This document shows positions 9,031 to 26,014 of a DNA stretch of 64,000 nucleotides, one piece after another. Source of the stretch: Natronococcus sp. CG52. GTDB lineage: Archaea > Halobacteriota > Halobacteria > Halobacteriales > Natrialbaceae. Under the pieces are notes generated by a model. It was given only the letters and a program-made list of their open reading frames with translations, was not told the origin of the DNA and did no database searches. The stretch lies in NCBI RefSeq assembly GCF_023913515.1, contig NZ_CP099391.1, positions 3,658,001 to 3,722,000 on the forward strand, given 5' to 3'. The translations under genes and the position numbers were made by a program. The number at the start of each line of letters is the position of its first letter. Position 1 is the first letter of the stretch.

Positions 9031-11388
9031 ATGGAGGTCGCCGAGGTTTTACCCGAGTTCGCCGACGCCTTCGCCTTCGAGGAGTTCAACCGAATGCAAC
9101 GCGAGGCTCTGCCCGCGTTGCTCGAGTCCGAGGAGAACGTGGTCGCGAGCGCGCCGACGGCTTCGGGCAAGACCGCGCTCGCCGAGCTCGCGATCTGCAA
9201 GGCGCTGGCCGACGGCGGCACCGCGCTCTTTATCGCGCCGATGCGAGCGCTAACCAACGAGAAGGAAGACGACTGGGACCGCTTCGAAAAACTCGACTAC
9301 TCGGTCTACGTCGTCACCGGGGAACGGGACCTCAATCCGCGGCGGGCGCGTCACGCGGACATCCTCGTGATGACCCCCGAAAAGCTCGACTCGGCGACCC
9401 GAAAACACGACTCTCGACGGTACGACTTCGTCACCGACATCGACCTCTGCGTCATCGACGAGGTCCACCTCCTCGACGCCGACCGCCGGGGATCGGTGCT
9501 CGAGGTGACGATCTCCCGGCTGCGGCGGCTCTGCGATCCCCGGATCGTCGCTCTCTCGGCGACGATGCCTAACGTCGACGACGTCGCGGCGTGGCTCGAC
9601 GCGCCCGACGAGACCACCTTCGAGTTCGGCGACGAGTACCGGCCCGTCGATCTGAACGCCGGGGTCAAGACCTACACGCACGGCGAGAACTCCTTCGCGG
9701 ACAAGTACCGCCGCCTGTACCGCGCGCTCGACCTCGCGGAACCGCACCTCCGCGAGGACGGCCAGTCGCTCGTCTTCGTCTCCTCTCGCCAGGACACCGT
9801 TCAGGCGGCCAAGAAGGCCAGAGACGAGATCGCCGAGCGCGACGTGCCGATGGGCGCCCGCGGCGACTACGACTTCCACACCGAGTCGAAGGAACTCGAC
9901 AACGACACCCTCCGCAACTCCGTCCTCGACGGCGTCGCCTTCCACCACGCGGGACTCTCGAAAAACGACCGCGACCTCGTCGAGGAGTGGTTCAAGCAGG
10001 GACACGTCGAACTGCTGTTCTCGACCTCGACGCTGGCGTGGGGAGTGAACCTTCCGGCCCGTTGCGTCGTGATTCGGGACACGAAACTCCACGATCCGCT
10101 CGAGGGCGAGGTCGATATGAGCCCGCTCGACGTGCTCCAGATGCTCGGGCGCGCGGGCCGGCCCGGCTACGACGACGTCGGCTACGGCTGGGTTGTCTGT
10201 GACACCGCCGAGGCAGACAAGTACCGCCGGCTGCTGCGCGACGGCAAGGAGATCGAGTCCAGACTCGCGGAGAGCCTGGAAACGCACCTCAACGCCGAGA
10301 TCGCGATGGGGACCATCACCGACTTAGAGGACGTGATGGACTGGCTCGAGACGACCTTCTACTACGTTCGCGGGCAGTCACAGCCCGAGGAGTACGACTT
10401 CCCCAACCTCCGCCAGCGCGTCCGGGACTGCCTCGAGGAACTGGTCGACCGAGGGTTCGTCACGATGGGCGAGTCGGGCGACCTCTCGATCGAGGCCACC
10501 CCGCGCGGAATGCTCGCCTCGAAGTACTACCTGCGCCTCGAGACGGCCGCTCGGTTTGCGGAACTCTGTGACGACGCTACGGTCGGCGACCTCGAGGCGG
10601 CGGATATCCTCGAGGCCGTCGCGACCGCCGCGGAGTTCGACTCGGTGTCGTCCCGGCAGGCCGAACGGGACGCCATCAGCGCGGTGCTCGTAGGCCAAGA
10701 GACCGACGACCTCGAGGCGGGCGAGCGAAAGGTGCTGGCGATCCTGCGCGGCGCCGCGAGCGGCTCCGTTCCGGGCGAACTCAGGAGCGACGCCTGGGTC
10801 ATCCGCCAGAACGCGACGCGGCTCGTCTCCGCCCTCGGTGCCTTCCTCGACCGACTGGCAGGGCCGCAGGCCGCGAACCTCGCCCGGCGCGTCGAGGCGC
10901 GAATCGAGAACGGCGTCGCCGAGGACGCGGTCGGGCTGACCGCCATCGACGGGGTCGGCCCCGGCCGGGCGAGCAAACTCTCGAAGGAGGGGCTGTCGAC
11001 GCCGGGCCACATCGTCGGCGCCGGCGTCACCGGCCTCGTCGACGCGGGTCTTTCAGAGGGCGTCGCCGAGCGCGTCTACGAGGGCGCGCAGTCGCTCCCC
11101 GCGGCCGAACTCGAGTGGGGGCCCTTCCCGGAGACGATCGGCGTCGGCGAGAACGACGTCTGTGAGGTCACCGTCCGAAACGTCGGCGAACCCGCGCGGG
11201 CGGGCATCCGCGTCACGGTAAACGGGGTCGAGATGACGAGCACGAACACCTACCTGCGCGATGCCGAGACGGTCCCCGTCGGCGTTTTCGGTGCCGACGC
11301 CGACGAACTCGAGTTTACCGTCAGCGTCGTCTTTCCCGAGGAGCCGCTGGTGCCGCTCGAGGAGACGCGGACCGTCGATGTCGTCTGA
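9031..11388 (+). CDS. Ski2-like (Hel308-related) superfamily 2 DNA/RNA helicase
   Basis: 785-residue ATP-dependent helicase. Motifs in order: Walker A APTASGKT (41-48), Walker B DEVH (143-146), SAT (176-178), and motif VI QMLGRAGRPGYD near 370. A Sec63/winged-helix-like middle follows, then a helix-hairpin-helix module at about 630-680 (IDGVGPGRASKL, VGAGVTGLVDAG). The last 90 or so residues form a beta-rich Ig-like domain (VCEVTVRNVGEPARAGIRVT) not found in Hel308 itself. The HhH module suggests nucleic-acid binding and a role in repair, replication restart or RNA handling. Canonical Hel308 starts with a Q motif; the N-terminus here is shorter, so I call it Ski2-like rather than Hel308. Confidence 0.9.
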   Translation: MEVAEVLPEFADAFAFEEFNRMQREALPALLESEENVVASAPTASGKTALAELAICKALADGGTALFIAPMRALTNEKEDDWDRFEKLDYSVYVVTGERDLNPRRARHADILVMTPEKLDSATRKHDSRRYDFVTDIDLCVIDEVHLLDADRRGSVLEVTISRLRRLCDPRIVALSATMPNVDDVAAWLDAPDETTFEFGDEYRPVDLNAGVKTYTHGENSFADKYRRLYRALDLAEPHLREDGQSLVFVSSRQDTVQAAKKARDEIAERDVPMGARGDYDFHTESKELDNDTLRNSVLDGVAFHHAGLSKNDRDLVEEWFKQGHVELLFSTSTLAWGVNLPARCVVIRDTKLHDPLEGEVDMSPLDVLQMLGRAGRPGYDDVGYGWVVCDTAEADKYRRLLRDGKEIESRLAESLETHLNAEIAMGTITDLEDVMDWLETTFYYVRGQSQPEEYDFPNLRQRVRDCLEELVDRGFVTMGESGDLSIEATPRGMLASKYYLRLETAARFAELCDDATVGDLEAADILEAVATAAEFDSVSSRQAERDAISAVLVGQETDDLEAGERKVLAILRGAASGSVPGELRSDAWVIRQNATRLVSALGAFLDRLAGPQAANLARRVEARIENGVAEDAVGLTAIDGVGPGRASKLSKEGLSTPGHIVGAGVTGLVDAGLSEGVAERVYEGAQSLPAAELEWGPFPETIGVGENDVCEVTVRNVGEPARAGIRVTVNGVEMTSTNTYLRDAETVPVGVFGADADELEFTVSVVFPEEPLVPLEETRTVDVV

Positions 11389-12389: not shown

Positions 12390-13046
12390 TTACGCGTCCT
12401 CGACGAACTCGAGCACCGTCTCACGAACCCCGTCGGGCGAGTCGACGACCTCGTCGGCCGGCGAGTAGTCGATACCGTCGTGGGCGTCGATCCGGTAGGC
12501 GACGACGAGCGTCTCCGCGCGGTCCGCCGCTTTGATCCCGTTCTCGGAGTCCTCGACGACGACGCAGCCCTCGGTCGGTACGTCGAGTTCGTCGGCGGCG
12601 TACTCGAAGACGTCCGGTTCCGGCTTGCTCGAGGCGTCGATCTCCTCGGCGCTGATCACGCGGTCGAACCCGTCCTCGAGGTCGAATCGCTCGAGGACCA
12701 TCCCGATCCAGTCGTGGGGCGAGGAGGAGACGACCGCCGTCGAGACGTCGCGGTCGTCCAGTTCCGCGAGCAGGTCGTGGGTCCCGTCGAGCAACTCGAC
12801 GCGCTCGGTGTAGAGCGTCTCGGCAGCATCGGCGAACTTGTCGACGTGTTCCTCGCGGGAGATCGCCGTTCCGTACTCCTCGTCGAGGTAGTCGTAGATC
12901 TCCCGGTAGTTCATGCCGGTCACTTCGGCGACGTCGACGTCCTCGTCGGGGACGGCCGCGGGGAGGATCTCCTCGCGCTGAAACTCGACCCAGTAATCTT
13001 CGGAGTTGACGAGAACGCCGTCCATGTCGAACAGGACTGCACTCAT
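12390..13046 (-). CDS. HAD-superfamily hydrolase (beta-phosphoglucomutase/phosphatase-like)
   Basis: 218-residue phosphatase of HAD subfamily IA. Motif I is FDMDGVLVNSEDYW with nucleophile Asp7 and acid/base Asp9; motif II serine lies in AVVSSSPHDW; the motif III lysine is in KPEPDVFEYA; motif IV is VVVEDSENGIKAA. An alpha-helical cap lies between motifs I and II. The likely substrate is a small phosphorylated metabolite (sugar phosphate or phosphoglycolate), not determined by sequence. The promoter region carries TATA-like CTATACG on the minus strand at about 13071-13077, inside a perfect inverted repeat that abuts the palindromic element at 13087. Confidence 0.9.
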   Translation of the reverse strand: MSAVLFDMDGVLVNSEDYWVEFQREEILPAAVPDEDVDVAEVTGMNYREIYDYLDEEYGTAISREEHVDKFADAAETLYTERVELLDGTHDLLAELDDRDVSTAVVSSSPHDWIGMVLERFDLEDGFDRVISAEEIDASSKPEPDVFEYAADELDVPTEGCVVVEDSENGIKAADRAETLVVAYRIDAHDGIDYSPADEVVDSPDGVRETVLEFVEDA

Positions 13047-16899: not shown

Positions 16900-17421
16900 T
16901 TACCGCCCCTGGACGGCCGGCTCGAGGAGTTCGTGATCGATCTGCTCGTAGGTCGCCTCGAGCGATCCCGAGTTGTCGACGACGACGTGGTCGCGCTCGA
17001 GCGGATCGAACGACTCGCGCAGCTGCAGGTACTGTTCGAACCGGGCGTCGCTGACGGCGTCCGTACGGTTCTCGATTCGCACCTTGACGACCTCGAGGTC
17101 GCAGTCGACGTGGACGAACGTGAGTTCGGCGTCGACCGCCCGCGCGATCTCGACGGCCCGGTCGCGGTACGGTTTCGACTGGAACGTGGCGTCGAGAACG
17201 ACGTTCGTGCCGGACTCGAGGTCCGAGCGCGCGAGTCGGAGCAGTTCTTCGTACGTTGCCTCGGACTCCTCCGAGGAGTACGTCGGTTCGGGGAAGAGCC
17301 GCTTTCGAACCCGGTCGCTGCGGTAGCGTTCCGCCTCGAGGTGCTCCGCCGTATAGGCGGACGCGACGGATTTGCCCACACCCGGCAATCCACAGTAGAC
17401 GATCAGCGTTGGACGAGCCAC
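16900..17421 (-). CDS. P-loop kinase (AAA/zeta-toxin-like ATP-binding protein)
   Basis: 173-residue small-molecule kinase fold: Walker A GLPGVGKS right after the first strand (PTLIVYCGLPGVGKSVAS), a lid region RSDRVRKRLFP, VVLDATFQSKPYRDRA (Walker B-like DAT), and VKVRIENRTD. This pattern is shared by zeta toxins, Pxp/PSTK-like kinases and gluconate-type kinases. I start at the GTG at 17421 (VARPTLIVYC); upstream in-frame codons to 17682 have poor codon use and would bury the P-loop far from the N-terminus. The substrate is unknown, and no antitoxin-like partner is adjacent. Confidence 0.83.
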   Translation of the reverse strand: MARPTLIVYCGLPGVGKSVASAYTAEHLEAERYRSDRVRKRLFPEPTYSSEESEATYEELLRLARSDLESGTNVVLDATFQSKPYRDRAVEIARAVDAELTFVHVDCDLEVVKVRIENRTDAVSDARFEQYLQLRESFDPLERDHVVVDNSGSLEATYEQIDHELLEPAVQGR

Positions 17422-17558
17422 GGTACCTATCGAGAGTACTCGTACTAAATCCGAACGGATTCCCGCGACGCGTCCCGAACGAGGTTCCGGGACACACCGA
17501 GCGAATCTCCTGTGTCGGCATATTATTCCACCGAGATAACTAAATATGAATACCGAAG

Positions 17559-17578
17559 TGATAACATATAAATTATCA
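17559..17578. promoter_or_regulatory. Inverted repeat over the phnD promoter, candidate operator
   Basis: TGATAA (17559-17564) and TTATCA (17573-17578) form a perfect inverted repeat around CATATAAA, which is itself the likely TATA box 35-45 nt before the phnD ATG at 17613. A dimeric repressor bound here would block TBP. The surrounding 17520-17590 is strongly AT-rich compared with the flanking genes. Control by phosphate or phosphonate supply is inferred from the operon, not seen. Confidence 0.5.
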
Positions 17579-17612
17579 TTGATTTTATGTCGGTTCGCTT
17601 TTCGTACTACGT

Positions 17613-18620
17613 ATGGCGCAGAGACCACGCGGCGGTGACAGCAGCCGACGATCGTTTTTGGCAGCTTCCGGGGGAGCCACACTCGTAGGTCTGGCGGGGT
17701 GTGTCGGCGGACTCGGCGGATCCGACGACGATGCCGTCCGGTTCATCCTCAACCCGGCGGAGGAACAGACCGACATCGTCGAAGAGTACACGCCGATGAA
17801 GGAGTACCTCGAGGAGGAGACCGGTGCAACCATCGACCTCATCCGCGCCGGCAGTTACGTCGAAACCCTCGAGGCGCTCGACTCGAACCAGGCGGATCTA
17901 GCGGACACGTCGCCGACGGCGGTGCCCGGCGGCGAAGGGTTCGCCGACGTCGTCGGCATGCGAACGGCCTTCGGCGGTCCGCTGTACTTCGCGACGATCT
18001 CGACGCTGCCGGACAGCGGGATCGAAAGCCTCGAAGATCTCGAGGGTGAGACGATCACCACGGGATCGCGGTTGTCGTTCAGTGGAACGCTGACCCCGAC
18101 GCTGATGCTCAGCGAGGCCGGACTCGACGTCGGAAGTTTCCCGGACGGAGATGCGAACGACCTGGATATCCAGACCGCGGAGGATCACGACACCTCTCGC
18201 GAGCAGATGATCAACGACGATACGGTTGCGGCCGCTGCGACGGGCGCGTTCGCCTCCGCCCCGCAGATCCCACAGGAACAGTTCGAGGAGTACGACGAAT
18301 TCGTCGAACACTCCGCCGAGTACGACGGTGCGGGCGACGGAGTCGACGACGAGAACCCGGAGCTACAGTTGCTCGCCGTCTCGGATCCGCTTCCTCGGGC
18401 ACCGATTATGGCCCGCAGCGAGTGGGACGCCCCCGAGCGCGAGGATATCGAGGAGGCGCTTCTCGACGCCGAAGAGGAGGATCTGGTGCCCGAAGACGTC
18501 GACGAAGACAAGGAACTCTGGTTCACCGGCATCGAGGAAGCCGACCGGAGCGATTACGAACCCGTCCAGGAGGTTCTCGACGAACTCGGGCTCGAATTCG
18601 AAGACTTTGAGGAAGAGTAG
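17613..18620 (+). CDS. phnD: Phosphate/phosphite/phosphonate ABC transporter, substrate-binding lipoprotein
   Basis: 335-residue extracytoplasmic binding protein of the PhnD family. The N-terminus is a Tat lipoprotein signal: SSRRSFLAASG and lipobox LAGC (about residues 10-30), so it should be exported folded and lipid-anchored. VRFILNPAEEQTDIVEEYTPMKEYLEEETG then resembles the PhnD/PtxB/HtxB start. The mature domain is rich in Asp/Glu. The C-terminal part includes PLPRAPIMARSEWD. It is the first gene of a D-C-E operon. The ligand (phosphonate, phosphite or hypophosphite) cannot be told apart by eye, and no C-P lyase genes are in the window. Confidence 0.92.
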   Translation: MAQRPRGGDSSRRSFLAASGGATLVGLAGCVGGLGGSDDDAVRFILNPAEEQTDIVEEYTPMKEYLEEETGATIDLIRAGSYVETLEALDSNQADLADTSPTAVPGGEGFADVVGMRTAFGGPLYFATISTLPDSGIESLEDLEGETITTGSRLSFSGTLTPTLMLSEAGLDVGSFPDGDANDLDIQTAEDHDTSREQMINDDTVAAAATGAFASAPQIPQEQFEEYDEFVEHSAEYDGAGDGVDDENPELQLLAVSDPLPRAPIMARSEWDAPEREDIEEALLDAEEEDLVPEDVDEDKELWFTGIEEADRSDYEPVQEVLDELGLEFEDFEEE

Positions 18621-18658
18621 CGGACACGTTCTAACAGACCGCGCAAGAATATTTAACA

Positions 18659-19426
18659 ATGTCCGCTATCCGAGTAGAAAACCTCACAAAACGGTACGGT
18701 GAGACCGTCGCGCTTGACGACGTCTCGTTCGAAATCGCCGAGGGGGAGTTCGTGATCGTTCTCGGCATCTCGGGATCGGGGAAATCGACGCTCCTCCGGT
18801 GCATCAACGGGTTGACTGCGCCGACGAACGGCGAGGTAATCGTTCAAGGCGAGCCGGTCACGTCCCACCGAAACGACGTCTCGATGGTCTTCCAGCAGCA
18901 CAATGTCATCGGCGATATGAGCGCGTATTCGAACGCGCTTACCGGCGCACTGAGTCGAGCCGACTTCGTGGAGAGCCTGCTCCGCTTCAACGACCGAGAA
19001 GACAAAATAAAAGCGCTGAACGCGCTCGACACGGTTGGACTGCTCGACGAGGCAGAACAACGCGCCGGCCGCATGAGCGGAGGACAACAGCAGCGGGTCG
19101 GCATCGCGAGAGCACTCGTTCAGAATTCGGATATTCTCCTCGCCGACGAACCGGTCGCGAGTCTCGACCCGGGTAGCGCACAGACGGTGATGGGGTATCT
19201 CCGTACTGCAGCCGAGGAACGCGGGTTGACCGCGATTATCAGTCTGCACCAGGTGAATCTCGCTCGGCAGTTCGGACAGCGGTTCATCGGCCTCGCCGAC
19301 GGCGAGCTGGTCTTCGACGGCTATCACGACGATCTGACACTCGACGTAATCGACGAGCTGTACGGTGGCATCGATATGGGAGAGTTCCTGTCGGGCGGAG
19401 ACAACAAAAGCGAGGCGACACGATGA
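18659..19426 (+). CDS. phnC: Phosphonate-type ABC transporter ATPase
   Basis: 255-residue nucleotide-binding subunit. Walker A GISGSGKST (near residue 40), Q-loop in VFQQHNVIGDMSAYSNAL, signature MSGGQQQRVGIARAL, Walker B ILLADEPVASLD and an H-loop in IISLHQVNLA. The FQQHN and PVASLDP segments are the usual PhnC forms. It starts 38 nt after phnD and overlaps phnE by 4 nt (ATGA), so the three genes should be one mRNA. Confidence 0.94.
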   Translation: MSAIRVENLTKRYGETVALDDVSFEIAEGEFVIVLGISGSGKSTLLRCINGLTAPTNGEVIVQGEPVTSHRNDVSMVFQQHNVIGDMSAYSNALTGALSRADFVESLLRFNDREDKIKALNALDTVGLLDEAEQRAGRMSGGQQQRVGIARALVQNSDILLADEPVASLDPGSAQTVMGYLRTAAEERGLTAIISLHQVNLARQFGQRFIGLADGELVFDGYHDDLTLDVIDELYGGIDMGEFLSGGDNKSEATR

Positions 19427-20310
19427 GCGAGGACAAACTCATCGAACAGCGGTTAGAAGAGATCCGTCTGACCCGTCGGGTTCAGTGGGTCATGTACGGA
19501 CTGTTCTCGCTGCTGTTTCTGATCGCTATCTACGGCTCGGTACGGTTGATGGATTTCTCGTTCGGCTATCTCTACCGGCAGTGGCCGTACTTCACCGATC
19601 AAGTCGTGAACTACGTCCCGGACATCGAATTCCTTATCGAGCGAAATCTGCCGCGTGAAGCAGGGATTACGCTCGCGATGGGATTCGTCGGAACCGTGTT
19701 CGGTATTCCGCTCGCGTTAGCCCTCGGCGTCCTCGGAAGCGGACGGGTTACTCCCTTCCCGTTTAATTTCATCTTTCGGTCGATCATGGCCGTCTCCCGT
19801 GCGATTCCCGCGCTGGTCTGGTTTTTCATCTTTATCCCGCTGAGCGGACTCACGGCCATCACCTCGACCATCGCGATCGCCGTCAGCACGATCGGAAACC
19901 TCGGTCGGCTGTTTACCGACGAGCTCGAGGAGGTCAAGGAGGGACCGATCGAGGCGATGGAAACCACCGGCGCGTCGAAATCACAGACGGTTACCTTCGG
20001 GATGCTCAGTCAGGTCAAAACGTCCTTCATCGCGTGGACGCTGTATATCTTCGAGGTGAACGTCCGACAGGCCGTCACCCTCGGGTTGATCGGCGGCGGC
20101 GGAATCGGCGTCGTCATCGAAGTTCAGCAAGGACTACGCGCCTACGACAACATGATGGCCGGCATCCTCGTCGTCTTCGTGCTAATCGTCGTCGTCGAGA
20201 TGATCAGTCAGCGCATTCGATCCTACCTCCGCGACGACGAGGAAGCCGACGGGCTGATTCAACTCATCGTCGGGTTCCCCCAGCGGATGGCCGAGTCGGC
20301 GATCAAATAA
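19423..20310 (+). CDS. phnE: Phosphonate-type ABC transporter permease
   Basis: 295-residue inner-membrane subunit. An N-terminal helix (WVMYGLFSLLFLIAIYGSV) precedes five or six further segments, and the EAA loop that contacts PhnC is visible as EAMETTGASKSQTVTFGML. GLIGGGGIGVVIEVQ near the end is typical for PhnE. The ATG overlaps the phnC stop. Only one permease gene is present, so it should act as a homodimer. Confidence 0.93.
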   Translation: MSEDKLIEQRLEEIRLTRRVQWVMYGLFSLLFLIAIYGSVRLMDFSFGYLYRQWPYFTDQVVNYVPDIEFLIERNLPREAGITLAMGFVGTVFGIPLALALGVLGSGRVTPFPFNFIFRSIMAVSRAIPALVWFFIFIPLSGLTAITSTIAIAVSTIGNLGRLFTDELEEVKEGPIEAMETTGASKSQTVTFGMLSQVKTSFIAWTLYIFEVNVRQAVTLGLIGGGGIGVVIEVQQGLRAYDNMMAGILVVFVLIVVVEMISQRIRSYLRDDEEADGLIQLIVGFPQRMAESAIK

Positions 20311-20340
20311 GCGGCTCTTCTCTCGCGTTCTTCGCGATAC

Positions 20341-21054
20341 TCAGTCGAGGTCCAGTTCCAGCGCTCGCGCACGCTCGAGGAACAGCGCCTTCGCATCGGT
20401 CTCGGGGTCGATATCGTCGGGGACGTACTCGAGGGCGGGTTTCTCACGCTCGCCGTTCGGAAAGTGCACGGCCAGCTCGTACCGACCGATCTCGGCGTCG
20501 ACGGCCTCGACCAGCCGCTCGTCCGTACTCGTCACCTCGAGTCCCGCGGCCTCTCGGACGGCCGCCTGCAGTCGCGTCTCGGCGCGAGTGTACCCCGGAA
20601 GGCTGCGCTTGACCGGCGCGGGCACGTCCGAGAGGTAGGCCTCGCTGGCGTCGTGGAGCAGTCCCCAGCGCCGGGCCGCGCGGCTCCCGCCGCGGGCCTC
20701 GACCTCGCGGCTGACGTGAATCGAGTGACGGGCGACGCTGTAGAACCACCTCCCCTGGCCGGTGAATCGGCTGAGGTTCGCGAGGGCGTGGGCGACGTCG
20801 GCCAGATCGATGCGCTCCGGCTCGGGTTCGAGCGGCGTGATCGTGCTCCCCGATCGCGTGTCGATGGCGCCGTGATCGTCGGTTCGCTCGACGAGCAGGT
20901 CCTGGAGCCGACCTACGACGGTCTCGGTCCGCCGTCGAAGCTCGGCGTCGGGCCCCTCGCCCGCTCGGAGCGCCTGCGCCAGGGTCACCACCTCGTCCTC
21001 GAGTCGCCGGCGCTCCCCCGGAGGCCCCTCCGAATCGTCGTCTGGACTGACCAT
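20341..21054 (-). CDS. HD-domain hydrolase (YfbR-like nucleotidase family)
   Basis: 237-residue protein whose HD motifs match the YfbR/5'-deoxynucleotidase type: RHSIHVSREVEA (first His), WGLLHDASEAYLSDV (the HD pair and following acidic residues), then PAPVKRSL. An unusual 100-residue N-terminal part is Asp/Glu/Arg-rich and possibly helical (RRLEDEVVTLAQALRAGEG). I start at the ATG at 21054 (MVSPDDDSEG); the frame upstream runs opposite the next gene's promoter and is not protein-like. The stop is 30 nt from the phnE stop, in convergent orientation. Confidence 0.85.
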   Translation of the reverse strand: MVSPDDDSEGPPGERRRLEDEVVTLAQALRAGEGPDAELRRRTETVVGRLQDLLVERTDDHGAIDTRSGSTITPLEPEPERIDLADVAHALANLSRFTGQGRWFYSVARHSIHVSREVEARGGSRAARRWGLLHDASEAYLSDVPAPVKRSLPGYTRAETRLQAAVREAAGLEVTSTDERLVEAVDAEIGRYELAVHFPNGEREKPALEYVPDDIDPETDAKALFLERARALELDLD

Positions 21055-21184
21055 ACTGTCACCGGTTCGAGAGGAGAGCCAAAGGTGTGACGCTGTCGGT
21101 GCCGGACTTCGACCGCCGGTCGGCAGCGGGAATCGGACCGCCGTCGTCCTCGAGTTTAAGTACCAGACCGCGGCCAACGGGGGT

Positions 21185-21949
21185 ATGATCGACGACGCCA
21201 TCCGCGTGCTCGCGGGCGACTGTACCGTCATCGCGGAAGGAACCGACCGATCGGAGTACCGCGGCCGCGTAACGACCATCGTCAAGCCGGACAACACCGT
21301 GCTCGTCCACGACGTCGACGGCTACCAGCCCGTCGCCTGGCTCACCCGCGCCGACAGCGTCTCGAGCGATCGTTCGGACGGGTTCACGCTCGTCGCGAAG
21401 AAGGACACCCAGACGCTGCGCATCGCCGCCCACGAGCAGGACGGGTTCGCCCACTACCCGGCCTCCGCGGCCGGAACGCCCGTCGGAACGTGTCCCGACT
21501 GCGATAGCGCGCTCGTACGTTCCTCGGGCGTCCACTGCGTCGGCTGCGGCAACCGCTACGGCGTCCCGACCGACGCGACGATCCGCGACGACCGGTGTGA
21601 GTGCGGACTGCCGCGGATGCGCGTCGAGCGCGGTCTCGCGTTCGACGTCTGTCTCGACCGGAACTGCGAGTCGCTCGACGAGGCCGTTCGCGAGGCGTTC
21701 GACCGCGAGTGGGACTGTCCCGAATCGGACTGCGACGGCGACCTCCGTATCCTCCGGCGGGGAGGCCTGATCGCCGGCTGCGAGCACTACCCCGACTGCG
21801 AGACCGGATTCGCGATGCCCACCGGCGTCGTCGACGGCGAGTGCAGCTGTGGGCTCCCGACGTTCGAAACGTCGACGGGGACACGCTGTCTCGACGCGAC
21901 CTGTGAACGGGTACTGGAGGGGCCGCTCGAGGTCGGCACGAACGACTGA
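21185..21949 (+). CDS. NucS-like DNA-binding domain fused to four topoisomerase-type zinc ribbons
   Basis: 254 residues. The first 90 or so resemble the N-terminal domain of archaeal NucS/EndoMS (YRGRVTTIVKPDNTVLVHDV, then GYQPVAWL). The rest is four Cys quartets like those of the C-terminus of type IA topoisomerases: Cys103/106/118/121, 138/140/156/161, 178/183/199/205 and 220/222/235/240. The RecB-like nuclease domain of NucS (D-x10-30-E-x-K) is absent. So it should bind DNA, perhaps branched or single-stranded, without cutting it. TTTAAGTA about 30 nt upstream is a good TATA box. Annotation as a NucS nuclease would be misleading. Confidence 0.8.
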   Translation: MIDDAIRVLAGDCTVIAEGTDRSEYRGRVTTIVKPDNTVLVHDVDGYQPVAWLTRADSVSSDRSDGFTLVAKKDTQTLRIAAHEQDGFAHYPASAAGTPVGTCPDCDSALVRSSGVHCVGCGNRYGVPTDATIRDDRCECGLPRMRVERGLAFDVCLDRNCESLDEAVREAFDREWDCPESDCDGDLRILRRGGLIAGCEHYPDCETGFAMPTGVVDGECSCGLPTFETSTGTRCLDATCERVLEGPLEVGTND

Positions 21950-22096
21950 TCCACCGACTCGATAGCGATTCGGCCATCTACCGAGCGAGAGCCGACCGAT
22001 CAGCCGTCGCTGCGGTGGGCAGGAATGAAAGGGACAGGGGCTGTCAGGGTATTCGAATCACCGTTCGCGTTGGCTCTCCGGAAGAAGCGATCCACA

Positions 22097-22109
22097 GCCA
22101 CTTAGTGGC
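22097..22109. promoter_or_regulatory. Palindrome GCCACT-T-AGTGGC at the endA promoter
   Basis: Six-base perfect arms with a single central T lie 20-32 nt before the endA ATG (22129), exactly where its TATA box should be (CTTAGT). Core promoters seldom carry such symmetry, so a protein site is possible. A second short repeat (GGCC-GAC-GGCC) follows directly. Confidence 0.35.
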
Positions 22110-22128
22110 CGACGGCCAAGCCACCGGT

Positions 22129-23169
22129 ATGTCACTCGAGGGGCGGTTCGAGGACGGCGTCGTTCGCGTCGGCGGCGACGCTCGCCAGCGCTATCACGAC
22201 TCGCGGGGGTACGGCTACCCGCTCGAGGGGAACGAGATCGCCCTCGCTCCCATCGAGGCGGCTCACCTGCTCTACCGGGGCGACCTCGAGGCCGTCGTCG
22301 ACGAGAGCGGCGACCGCCTCGAGTTCCGGTCGTTCCTGGCTCGCGAACCCGGGCCCGACTTCGGCGTCCGCTTTCTTGTCTACGCCGACCTCCGCTCGCG
22401 GGGGTTCTATCTCTCGCCCGCAGCGGAGCCGTGGCTCGACGATCCGCCGGAAACCGACTTCGCCGTCTTCCCGCGGGGTAAGGGACCCGGCGACGGGAAG
22501 GTCGCCTACGCGCTCCAGGTCATCGGCGAGCGAACGGACGTGCCGGCACGCGACCTCGAAGCGGGCGTCCTCGCGGTCGTCGACGAGGAGAGCGAAATAA
22601 CGTACTTCGAGGTCGCACGGCGGGATCCGACGGGTTCGTCGGCGTCGTCGCTGCCGGAGGGCTGCGAGGCGGACCTGCTCGCGGACCGCGTCGTCGTCTG
22701 GGAGCCGCCGCTCGCCCTGTACGAGGAGACGTTCTACGGCCAGCCGCTCGAGGGCCGGGAGTACGACGAACCGACGTTACAGTGTTCGCTGCTCGAGGCG
22801 GCCTACCTCGCCGAGGGGGACGCGATCGACCTCGAGCCGACGACGGTTCGCGAACGTGGCCGAAAGGTCGAGGGCGAGCGGTTCGACCGACGGTTCCGAG
22901 TCTACACTGAACTGCGCGAGCGTGGCATTGTACCCAAGACGGGGTACAAGTTCGGCGCGGACTTCCGAACCTACGCCGACGTCGACTCCGTCGACGACCT
23001 CGGTCACTCGGAGCTACTGGTGCGCGTCCATCCGGACGACTACGTCTTCGAGCCGCGCGACCTCGCGCTCGACGTGCGGCTGGCCCACGGCGTCCGGAAG
23101 ACGATGGTGTTCGCGCTCGTGGGTGCGGAGAGCGTCGAGTGGTGGTCGATCGAGCGGCTGACGCCCTGA
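22129..23169 (+). CDS. endA: tRNA-splicing endonuclease
   Basis: 346-residue intron-excising endonuclease that cuts archaeal tRNA and rRNA precursors at bulge-helix-bulge motifs. It is the long, internally duplicated form found in haloarchaea: two similar halves with DLRSRGFYLSP in the first and ELRERGIVPKTGYKFGADF in the second, the latter holding the catalytic Tyr segment. The HSELLVRVHPDDY stretch carries the catalytic His. I start at the ATG at 22129 (MSLEGRFEDG); an upstream GTG extension would overlap the promoter. TrpRS-1 follows on the same strand; haloarchaeal tRNA-Trp has an intron, which makes the neighbourhood sensible. Confidence 0.93.
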   Translation: MSLEGRFEDGVVRVGGDARQRYHDSRGYGYPLEGNEIALAPIEAAHLLYRGDLEAVVDESGDRLEFRSFLAREPGPDFGVRFLVYADLRSRGFYLSPAAEPWLDDPPETDFAVFPRGKGPGDGKVAYALQVIGERTDVPARDLEAGVLAVVDEESEITYFEVARRDPTGSSASSLPEGCEADLLADRVVVWEPPLALYEETFYGQPLEGREYDEPTLQCSLLEAAYLAEGDAIDLEPTTVRERGRKVEGERFDRRFRVYTELRERGIVPKTGYKFGADFRTYADVDSVDDLGHSELLVRVHPDDYVFEPRDLALDVRLAHGVRKTMVFALVGAESVEWWSIERLTP

Positions 23170-23232
23170 AGAATCGCACGACGGTTCCGTACAGGCGAAC
23201 TGCGTATCACTTCGGACCAACCTATTTCCTGC

Positions 23233-23366
23233 GGTGGCGCGCGCTGTCGGCCGACCGAGCGCGAGCGAGGGCGGTCGACGACGCTGTGCGAGGGGCGAAC
23301 GAGCGCAGCGAGTGAGTCGGCTGGGGAGGGCGTGGTAATCCCCCGTGTTCGTGCGAGGAGGACCTG
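23233..23366 (+). repeat. GGCTGGGGAGG dispersed element, full copy C
   Basis: Begins GGTGGCGCGCGCTGTCGG, passes GGCGGTCGACGACGCTGTGC, includes a 22-bp insert with GAGCGCAGCGAG, and ends GAGTCGGCTGGGGAGGGCGT then CCCCGTGTTCGTGCGAGGAG. It is nearly identical to the reverse complement of 15112-15222. It lies between two gene ends that face each other. Confidence 0.85.
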
Positions 23367-23451
23367 CTCCTGGAGAATTACCGCGAAAGTCCCTGGCCCG
23401 CTCGCCGACTGCGACTCGCTGCGCGCTTCTTTCGCTCCGCTCAGTCTCGTT

Positions 23452-23501
23452 CGAAAGGCGCTTCGCGCCTTTCGTGATCACGAGAGAGCGAAGCTCTCTC
23501 G
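23452..23501. repeat. Two adjacent perfect hairpins
   Basis: CGAAAGGCGC-TTC-GCGCCTTTCG (23452-23474, 10-bp stem, 3-nt loop) is followed after GTGATCA by CGAGAGAGC-GAA-GCTCTCTCG (23481-23501, 9-bp stem, 3-nt loop). The loops TTC and GAA are reverse complements of each other. They sit between the converging endA and methyltransferase genes and could end transcription from either side, although no T-run follows. Confidence 0.8.
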
Positions 23502-23656
23502 AACGACAGTGCTTGCGTCGTCTCGCTCGTCAACCGGGCCAGCCCCTTTCAGTCCCACCCGGCGGCGGTTGGCCGGTACTGCAGACTCGACGTCGGACGT
23601 TCCATTCGCCTCTCTACGTAACGAACGACCAGTTCGGGTTCAGAACCAAACTGCTG

Positions 23657-24052
23657 CTATTCGGTCCCCGGAATCGAGGCCCCCTCGTGCTCGAGTAGGC
23701 GACGCTTCAGCTTCAGCCCGCCGGCGTAGCCGGTGAGCGAATCGGTGCTCACGACGCGGTGGCAGGGGACGATCACGGGAAGCGGATTGCGGCCGCAGGC
23801 CTGTCCGACGGCGATCGGCGCGGTCTCGAGGTCGGCCGCAAGTTCGCCGTACGTGCGCGTTTCTCCGCGTGGAATCCGCTCCATCGCCCGCATCACCGCA
23901 CCTGTAAAGTCGCCGGGATACTCGATTTCGAGGTCGAACTGCGCCCGCTGCCCGGCTTCGTACTCCCGCAGTTGCTCACGAACGGACGACGGATCCGCGT
24001 CGATCCGCACCTCGTCGAGTTCGAGTTCGCTCCCGAAGATTCGAATGCGCAT
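23657..24052 (-). CDS. ogt: Methylated-DNA-protein-cysteine methyltransferase
   Basis: 131-residue suicide repair protein that moves alkyl groups from O6-alkylguanine to its own cysteine. The active-site motif PVIVPCHRVV is intact, preceded by the DNA-binding helix RTYGELAADLETAPIAVGQACGR and followed by TGYAGGLKLKRRLLEHEG. The N-terminal domain (IFGSELELDEV) is short, as in haloarchaeal members. The start ATG at 24052 is 106 nt from the divergent TrpRS gene, so the two probably share a promoter region. Confidence 0.93.
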   Translation of the reverse strand: MRIRIFGSELELDEVRIDADPSSVREQLREYEAGQRAQFDLEIEYPGDFTGAVMRAMERIPRGETRTYGELAADLETAPIAVGQACGRNPLPVIVPCHRVVSTDSLTGYAGGLKLKRRLLEHEGASIPGTE

Positions 24053-24158
24053 CGGTCAGTCGTTCGTCGTCGGACGACTTAGCCCGTACGGTGGGTCGAG
24101 ATCGACGGCGAGACCGAAGGCGAAGGCTTTTGCGCTCCGGCGCGCCAAAACCGTGGTA

Positions 24159-25790
24159 ATGACCGGAGACGACCCATGCGAGGAGCCCGACTCAGCGGAA
24201 CCGCGAACCGGGCAGCCGGTAGCGGACGGTGTTGAGCGATTCGCCTCGGCGCTCCGTTCCGACGGCGGAGCAGCAGGCGCAGACGACGTCGCACTGGATC
24301 CGTGGGGCTCCTCGGCCGTCTCCGACTACCGCAAACTGTTCGAGGAGTTCGGCATCGAGGAGTTTGACGAGATACTCGAGGAGGTTCCGAACCCCCACTA
24401 CCTGATGCGTCGGGGCGTCATCTTCGGACACCGCGACTATCGACCGGTCGCGGAGGCGCTACGCAACGGGGAGGACGCGGCCGTCCTCTCAGGATTCATG
24501 CCCACCGGCGATCCGCACATCGGTCACAAGCTGGTGTTCGACGAGATCGTCTGGCACCAGCAACAGGGCGCCGACGCCTACGCGCTGATCGCCGACCTCG
24601 AGGCCAACTCCGCCCGCGGGATGAGCTGGGACGAGATCGACGAGCACGCGCGTAACTACCTCCTCTCGCTGCTTGCGCTCGGGTTCGATCCCGAGGAGGG
24701 AGAGCTCTACCGCCAGTCGACCAACCGCGAGGTCCAGGACCTCGCGTTCGACCTCGGCGCGGACGCCAACTTCTCCGAGTTCCAGGCGATCTACGGCTTC
24801 GACGGCGAGACCGACGTCTCCCACATGCAGTCGGTCGTCACGCAGATGGCCGACATCCTCTACCCGCAACTCGAGGAGCCCAAACCCACCGTGATCCCCG
24901 TCGGCCCGGACCAGGATCCACACGTCCGACTGGCTCGCGACCTCGCCGAGCGGACCCGATTCTTCAAGGTCTCGGAGGCGTACGCGAGCTTCGAACTCGA
25001 TCCCGAGGAACGCGCCCTCGTCGCCGACTACTACGAGCGCCTCGATCCGGCCGAGTTCGACGACGACTCGCTCCGCTGCGTCCACGTCGCCGGGGCGATC
25101 GAGGAGACGCCGCTCGAGGAACTCGACGTCGCGGCCGACACGCTCAGCTCGGTCCTGACGAAGCTCGAGGAGGGCGGAATGGAGCCGATCCGTCCGCGGA
25201 CGCGCTTCTCCGACCGACGGGCGACCGAGGAAGCGTTCGACGCGCTCATCGACGCCATCGACGGCGAGAAGCGCGTCTACGAGAGCCACGTCGACGCCTT
25301 CGAGATCGACCGCGCCGAGGCCGAGGAACTCGCCCGACAGGTCGAGGTCGACAACGGCGGCTACGGCTTCCGTCCGCCCTCCTCGATCTACCACCGCTTC
25401 ATGACCGGGCTGACGGGCGGCAAGATGTCGTCGTCGGTGCCGGCGAGTCACATCTCGCTGCTGGACGATCCCGAGGACGGCTACAGCAAGGTGAAGTCGG
25501 CGACGACCGGCGGCCGCGAGACGGCCGAAGAGCAGCGCGAACTCGGCGGCCGCGCCGACGAGTGTCCCGTCTACGAACTGTACGCCTACCTGCTCTCGGG
25601 GGACGACGACGAGTTCGCCAAGCGCGTCTACGACGAGTGCGTCGGCGGGGAGCGGCTCTGTGGCGACTGCAAGGAGCAGGCCGCCCAGCTCATGAAGGAG
25701 TTCCTCGAGGAGCACCAGGAGAAGCGCAAGGAGGTCGCGGAGCTGCTCGAGGCGGCGGATATCGAACTCGAGTCGCCGCGGCGGGGGTAA
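24159..25790 (+). CDS. trpS: Tryptophan--tRNA ligase, copy 1 (endA-linked, long form)
   Basis: 543-residue class-I aminoacyl-tRNA synthetase. HIGH-type motif PTGDPHIGHKLVFDEI, KMSKS-type motif GGKMSSSVPAS, and VIPVGPDQDPHVRLARDLAE of the TrpRS/TyrRS fold are all present. The ATG at 24159 (MTGDDPCEEP) begins a 60-residue acidic N-terminus before VSDYRKLFEEFGIEEF. The frame upstream overlaps the methyltransferase gene and is not coding. C-terminal helix EFLEEHQEKRKEVAELLEAA. A second TrpRS lies at 55804-57033. This copy is longer, with an extended helical insertion after the HIGH motif. Confidence 0.93.
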   Translation: MTGDDPCEEPDSAEPRTGQPVADGVERFASALRSDGGAAGADDVALDPWGSSAVSDYRKLFEEFGIEEFDEILEEVPNPHYLMRRGVIFGHRDYRPVAEALRNGEDAAVLSGFMPTGDPHIGHKLVFDEIVWHQQQGADAYALIADLEANSARGMSWDEIDEHARNYLLSLLALGFDPEEGELYRQSTNREVQDLAFDLGADANFSEFQAIYGFDGETDVSHMQSVVTQMADILYPQLEEPKPTVIPVGPDQDPHVRLARDLAERTRFFKVSEAYASFELDPEERALVADYYERLDPAEFDDDSLRCVHVAGAIEETPLEELDVAADTLSSVLTKLEEGGMEPIRPRTRFSDRRATEEAFDALIDAIDGEKRVYESHVDAFEIDRAEAEELARQVEVDNGGYGFRPPSSIYHRFMTGLTGGKMSSSVPASHISLLDDPEDGYSKVKSATTGGRETAEEQRELGGRADECPVYELYAYLLSGDDDEFAKRVYDECVGGERLCGDCKEQAAQLMKEFLEEHQEKRKEVAELLEAADIELESPRRG

Positions 25791-25978
25791 ATCGCCGCTC
25801 GAAGTTCGTTTCTATACCGGCTCTGACGAGAGCGCGTCGACTCACTTACTGCGTACGTCTGATTTTGCGATCGGTGTAGCGGAGTCTCGGACGGTGCAGC
25901 AACACACTGAATCGACCGCTCGACGGCTAGCGTCAGTTGATAACACAGACCAAACAGACTTACGAGTTTCTTTCTAAG

Positions 25979-25989
25979 ATAAATTTAAC
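25979..25989 (+). promoter_or_regulatory. TATA box of the amino-acid permease gene
   Basis: ATAAATTTAAC is centred about 30 nt before the ATG at 26015, the usual archaeal spacing. The permease should therefore be made from a nearly leaderless mRNA. Confidence 0.65.
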
Positions 25990-26014
25990 AGCAGTCCTAC
26001 TGAAACGTGTGATT

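Follow-up and report, generated by a model that had tools for sequence, protein, structure and literature searches.

A haloarchaeal NucS_N/zinc-ribbon protein as a probable non-catalytic subunit of a Brr2/ASCC3-like Ski2-type helicase

Ski2-like helicases move 3′ to 5′; among the eukaryotic members, Brr2 and Slh1 have RNA and ribosomes as substrates. ASCC3 and Slh1 have zinc-finger protein partners, ASC1 and Rqt4, respectively, with ASCC3 and ASC1 seen together in PDB entry 8alz and the RQT-bound ribosome in 7zpq. Archaeal Ski2-like helicases include Hel308/Hjm and ASH-Ski2, the latter of which is bound to aRNase J and carries an N-terminal Cys2-Cys2/zinc-finger extension. Two further described systems share parts with the protein studied here: NucS/EndoMS (PDB 5gke and 2vld; Pfam PF21003 plus PF01939), with a PH-like N-terminal domain, and the type IA topoisomerases, with Cys4 zinc ribbons (PF01396).

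The stretch of DNA analyzed (the window; 64,000 nt of the Natronococcus sp. CG52 genome) encodes at 21185–21949 a protein that we refer to as NZ, and further upstream a Ski2-like helicase. In the literature searched, neither NZ nor its fusions are described; the coverage of archaeal Ski2 helicases was incomplete, and the helicase clade may have been described before. The features discussed below are as follows:

9031–11388, + strand: helicase of 785 a.a., Ski2-like of the Brr2/ASCC3 type, putative partner of NZ and unfused orthologue of the fused helicases
11098–11385, + strand: helicase C-terminal beta-domain (residues ~690–785), present in Brr2/ASCC3 cassettes and beyond the listed Hel308 matches
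21155–21176, + strand: NZ promoter, with TATA-like TTTAAGTA at −30 to −23 and conserved CGCGGCCA at −16 to −9
21185–21949, + strand: NZ gene, ATG start, 254 a.a., NucS_N plus four zinc ribbons
21197–21442, + strand: NucS_N (PH-like) domain, NZ residues 5–86
21491–21547, + strand: predicted zinc ribbon 1 (Cys103, 106, 118, 121)
21596–21667, + strand: predicted zinc ribbon 2 (Cys138, 140, 156, 161; Cys kept in 81/81 orthologues)
21716–21799, + strand: predicted zinc ribbon 3, topoisomerase IA type (Cys178, 183, 199, 205; Pfam match under the cut-off)
21842–21904, + strand: predicted zinc ribbon 4 (Cys220, 222, 235, 240; Cys kept in 81/81 orthologues)
22129–23169, + strand: endA, tRNA-splicing endonuclease, conserved downstream neighbor of NZ
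24219–25790, + strand: presumably trpS, tryptophanyl-tRNA synthetase, second conserved downstream neighbor (start approximate)

Searches for RNA genes around the NZ locus were negative: no structured RNA exceeded gathering scores in 17000–26000, and no tRNA was found in the window.

NZ residues 5–86 match the Pfam NucS_N domain above its cut-off (E = 7.8e-07; 29.4 bits against 23.9), and a profile of 40 NZ orthologues retrieved EndoMS 5gke (E = 2.2e-4) and NucS 2vld (E = 7.2e-4) from the PDB sequences. The AlphaFold2 model of NZ, also built from 40 orthologues (mean pLDDT 87.1, pTM 0.59), superimposes its first domain on EndoMS 5gke by Foldseek (E = 1.2e-6, rmsd 1.9, 95 columns). The original prediction, made from the sequence of this stretch, had assigned the first 90 residues to a NucS N-terminal domain, to be checked by structure prediction, and had described the nuclease domain as missing; both points hold, as NucS_C is absent from NZ in a Pfam scan at E up to 10. 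The true NucS that it suggested looking for elsewhere also exists, the sole NucS_C match in this genome (C1:2276900–2277232) lying inside a full-length NucS. NZ thus shares with NucS/EndoMS the PH-like fold, the KPD...PV.W motif, and a stacking tryptophan, but lacks NucS_C.

The 16 cysteines of NZ form four Cys4 modules (103–121, 138–161, 178–205, and 220–240), and these are predicted to bind zinc. The four modules had been called topoisomerase-like, which stands as regards the Cys4 arrangement but has profile support in module 3 only: residues 178–206 match Zn_ribbon_Top1 PF01396 at E = 8.5e-4 and 19.5 bits, below the cut-off of 32, and modules 2 and 4 appear topoisomerase-like by cysteine spacing. 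Module 1 (102–122) gave a weak match to the Auto_anti-p27 zinc family (E = 0.01, below the cut-off). NZ resembles the type IA topoisomerase ribbons in Cys4 spacing and in the GC..YP.C pattern of module 3; unlike these enzymes, it has no topoisomerase core, and its four modules are conserved as one array.

A genome scan returned 166 NZ relatives, of which the best 80 were kept, all haloarchaeal by record title; the closest among these 80 was that of Natronococcus pandeyae (96% identical). Across the 81 aligned orthologues, no row lacks any of the last 12 cysteines, the first four are kept in 94%, and every position of the loop D-G-Y-Q-P-V-A-W-L-T-R is identical in at least 98% of rows. Cysteines of ribbon 1 are lost, with ribbons 2–4 intact, in four Halobellus rows and in Halomarina halobia (L067, L074, L075, L077, and L080). 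Among 392 genomes of the phylum Halobacteriota searched with the NZ profile, near-full-length matches were confined to the order Halobacteriales, where NZ was found in 79 of the 81 sampled genomes and is thus nearly universal in haloarchaea; in genomes belonging to neither this order nor family f10, no match was better than E = 1.1e-11. Two NZ matches fall in two pieces (G313:C1:3030430-3030987 and G185:C5:15524-16402) and may be broken genes or sequencing errors. A viral or plasmid origin was considered and set aside, as none of 14 pattern matches in viral contigs was confirmed as a relative and the plasmid collection gave no match.

Each half of NZ is found separately fused to the C-terminus of one helicase family, the zinc array in f10 and NucS_N in f17. 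In seven f10 genomes, the whole zinc array (NZ residues ~95–243) was matched at 125–139 bits within frames of 534–1046 a.a. The frames examined are Ski2-like helicases carrying the array at the C-terminus, where an HMM of the zinc part scored 117–130 bits in six of them. NucS_N is the part fused to this helicase family in two f17 genomes; the one scanned (G019) exceeds the Pfam NucS_N cut-off (E = 7.8e-07) and also contains an HRDC domain, and an HMM of the N-terminal part of NZ gives the two fused domains 46 and 44 bits, a higher score than that of the genome's own NucS (35 bits). Because related archaea carry either half fused to this helicase, we read NZ as the detached counterpart of the C-terminal module of its relatives. 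Two observations count against a subunit: no chain among the matches listed combined the helicase, NucS_N, and the zinc array, and the helicase threshold (E up to 1e-100) was passed by two of the four f17 genomes with NZ-profile matches. In a tree of 32 NucS_N domains, three groups each formed one clade, a result compatible both with NZ branching beside the fused domains and with NZ branching beside NucS.

Searched with the f10 helicase, the Natronococcus genome gave the window helicase at 9031–11388 as its top match (46% over f10 residues 5–739, i.e., without the tail). In a tree of 31 helicases, eight haloarchaeal and six fused sequences formed one clade (100/100), apart from 13 Hel308 and four outgroup rows. 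We took the four outgroup rows to be ASH-Ski2-like from their N-terminal Cys2-Cys2 motif; the window helicase, also an archaeal Ski2-like helicase, begins at the helicase core and falls outside them. Besides the window helicase, the genome encodes a Hel308 and a presumed ASH-Ski2.

The window helicase shares its Ski2-like core with Hel308/Hjm but differs in domain content. It contains Pfam Sec63 (PF02889, 57.9 bits; cut-off 25), with PF21280 (archaeal helicase domain 4) not listed at E up to 1, and the genome's own Hel308 is the reverse, with PF21280 at 2.2e-38 and Sec63 missing among hits with E up to 0.01. Likewise, the window helicase scores short of the NCBIfam Hel308 models NF040935 (245 vs. 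1200 bits) and NF002654 (376 vs. 887 bits), and the Hel308 locus passes NF002654 with 1192. By phmmer, the best PDB matches of the window helicase are human Brr2, ASCC3, and yeast Slh1 (499–507 bits over two stretches), with fungal Brr2 at 354–431 bits over one stretch and Hel308 at 221. The order is reversed for the own Hel308 (Hel308 520, Brr2 255), and the fused f17 helicase follows the window helicase (ASCC3 564, Hel308 255). In the predicted structure (pLDDT 87.9, pTM 0.80), residues 1 to 783–785 align with Brr2, Slh1, and ASCC3 (Z 29.9–34.6, rmsd 4.6–7.2, 672–764 residues), i.e., over the whole length including the C-terminal beta-domain, whereas the listed Hel308/Hjm chains align up to residue 690 at most (Z 30.0–32.2, rmsd 5.7–6.8, 611–641 residues). 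Since the Z ranges overlap, the assignment rests on extent, domains, and scores. Judged by scores and predicted fold rather than by a tree, the window helicase is Brr2/ASCC3/Slh1-like and not a Hel308, although it is archaeal and has one cassette where the eukaryotic proteins have two.

This helicase was found (E up to 1e-100) in 80 of the 81 sampled Halobacteriales genomes, none of which has NZ without it; one genome has the helicase without NZ (G018), which counts against a subunit, and one has neither (G134). In 60 of 79 genomes, it precedes NZ on the same strand by no more than 15 kb. The remaining 19 count against the subunit reading: in eight the two genes are on opposite strands (two of these within 1.2 kb), in five they are on other contigs, and in six the helicase is far or downstream. 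Among nine loci picked as close, the distance from the helicase stop to the start of the NZ match was 33–93 nt in eight and 979 nt in the ninth. Within the flank examined, the helicase was upstream on the same strand in 32 of the 80 NZ loci. In 19 of these 32, as in the window (12390–13046), a gene on the opposite strand, presumably for a HAD-like phosphatase, lies between helicase and NZ.

A tighter neighbor than the helicase is endA, which counts against the subunit reading: it follows NZ on the same strand in 75 of the 80 haloarchaeal loci (median gap 120 nt), as here, where its adjacency had been correctly predicted, and trpS follows within the examined flank in 57 of 80. NZ could on this basis be a factor in tRNA splicing or tRNA-Trp maturation: its ribbons and NucS_N would bind RNA, namely the intron-containing precursors on which EndA acts, and the product would be charged by TrpS. 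The f10 fused helicase also adjoins endA in five of five loci (with a trpS-like match in two of the five). However, both fusions are to the helicase and none to EndA or TrpS, and in the flanks examined around the f17 fused helicase no endA match was found (1.3–3.7 kb a side in L124). The f10 neighbors likewise point elsewhere: on the side away from endA, all five loci (L118–L122) carry genes that we take to be of the XPB and Bax1 types, and XPB and Bax1 are a DNA-repair pair. The evolutionary distances of NZ, compared over the 17 of 80 loci in which NZ, helicase, EndA, and TrpS were all complete, track those of the helicase (partial r 0.64, 0/2000 permutations) but, after allowing for the helicase, not those of EndA (−0.08) or TrpS (−0.06). 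We consider a tRNA role for NZ unlikely. For the helicase-subunit reading, the coupling is unspecific and weak support, because other gene pairs were also above chance (helicase–EndA 0.57, 0/2000; helicase–TrpS 0.32, 6/2000; EndA–TrpS 0.27, 14/2000).

NZ has its own promoter, as originally predicted, with TATA-like motifs at −36 to −21 in 68 of the 80 upstream regions compared to 2 of 80 in a control stretch (−70 to −55). No copy of this element was visible ahead of the helicase, either in the window or in 25 loci inspected by eye, which counts against a subunit. Taken with the 19 of 79 genomes without close same-strand linkage, a separate promoter would suit an independent single-strand or topology factor, one that lies near the helicase as the remnant of a gene split and has no functional contact with it. 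Such independence is hard to reconcile with NZ never occurring without the helicase in the 81 genomes, with the NucS_N loop and 12 cysteines being so strictly conserved, and with the rate coupling, itself unspecific, and we consider it very unlikely. In the promoter itself, the TATA element and CGCGGCCA keep a constant spacing to the start codon. With up to two mismatches allowed, this pattern occurs at six sites in the genome compared to none for the reversed pattern, and five of the six lie 8–9 nt before the start codon of an open frame longer than 60 a.a. (L174–L178). The genes at these sites other than NZ presumably encode small secreted-looking, pilin-like, lamin-tail/PLD-like, and TctA-like membrane proteins.

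The NucS_N domain could also suggest a role beside NucS, and here the residues of the base pocket are informative. In simulations of EndoMS, Tyr41 and Trp77 stack on the flipped base, and Asn76 and Trp77 hydrogen-bond to it (PMC6829318). Trp77 corresponds to Trp52 of NZ, a Trp in 81 of 81 rows, and Asn76 to Ala51, an Ala likewise in 81 of 81; where EndoMS has Tyr41, NZ has Ala in 40 rows, Phe in 25, and Tyr in one. In further NZ genomes, the Ala51 position is Glu (G332) or Gly (G060) but never Asn, and Trp is kept. As Trp is retained and Asn replaced by Ala, base stacking by NZ remains plausible, and EndoMS-style mismatch reading by it is unlikely. NucS_C went unmatched in seven of the eight genomes with NZ that were selected for low NucS_N scores (the search covering these eight and the Natronococcus genome, out of the 79 that are NZ-positive), and NZ therefore does not seem to depend on NucS. 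A role for NZ beside NucS/EndoMS in the repair of mismatches or branched DNA, such as that of a partner or competitor that does not cut, is suggested by the NucS_N homology and the invariant tryptophan, but we rejected it as the main reading and give it hardly any credence given these seven genomes, the altered Asn76 and Tyr41 positions, and the 1.4 Mb separating nucS from NZ.

We consider that NZ is probably a non-catalytic nucleic-acid-binding subunit working with the Brr2/ASCC3-type helicase at 9031–11388. The original prediction of a mismatch, fork, or topology accessory factor is borne out as regards an accessory role but not as regards mismatches or topology. Its observation of the domain make-up is confirmed; its NucS-centered interpretation is replaced by that of a helicase subunit, the most likely reading, because the fusions and gene order point to the Brr2/ASCC3-like helicase in the same window. 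NZ would dock on the helicase, perhaps via the C-terminal beta-domain of the latter, and its NucS_N domain, with the conserved Trp52, would grip a junction or unpaired base, with the zinc ribbons holding the freed single strand. NZ would thereby target or clamp the motor, and the helicase would do the work. The substrate is rather more likely to be branched or damaged DNA than RNA or ribosomes, given the NucS_N domain, the topoisomerase-type ribbon, the HRDC domain, and the repair-type neighbors in f10; a role on RNA is conceivable because endA and trpS adjoin NZ and because of the RNA and ribosome substrates of Brr2 and Slh1.

The pairing of the window helicase with NZ resembles ASCC3–ASC1 and Slh1–Rqt4, by analogy only. 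Extended further, the analogy would make this a third Ski2-like helicase of Halobacteriota, a Brr2/ASCC3/Slh1-type enzyme that has a complete Sec63 unit and a separate zinc-ribbon subunit and serves as an archaeal stand-in for the machines clearing alkylated DNA or stalled ribosomes, with a position near the root of Brr2 and ASCC3; we offer this as a speculative and unlikely proposal. With the subunit reading, a gene found in almost all haloarchaea acquires a defined partner that can be tested, an archaeal helicase for which the nearest relatives of known structure are eukaryotic Brr2, ASCC3, and Slh1, not Hel308. In a haloarchaeal model organism, for example Haloferax volcanii, the role of the helicase can be tested directly, as can the question whether machines of the Brr2/ASCC3 type that have zinc-bearing partners are older than eukaryotes.

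Besides NucS and NZ, we noted a further protein matching NucS_N in several genomes of f2 and a few others (G078:C2:353488, G089:C1:2013171, G028:C1:679320, G210:C1:258034, G350:C1:346649, and G230:C5:84901).
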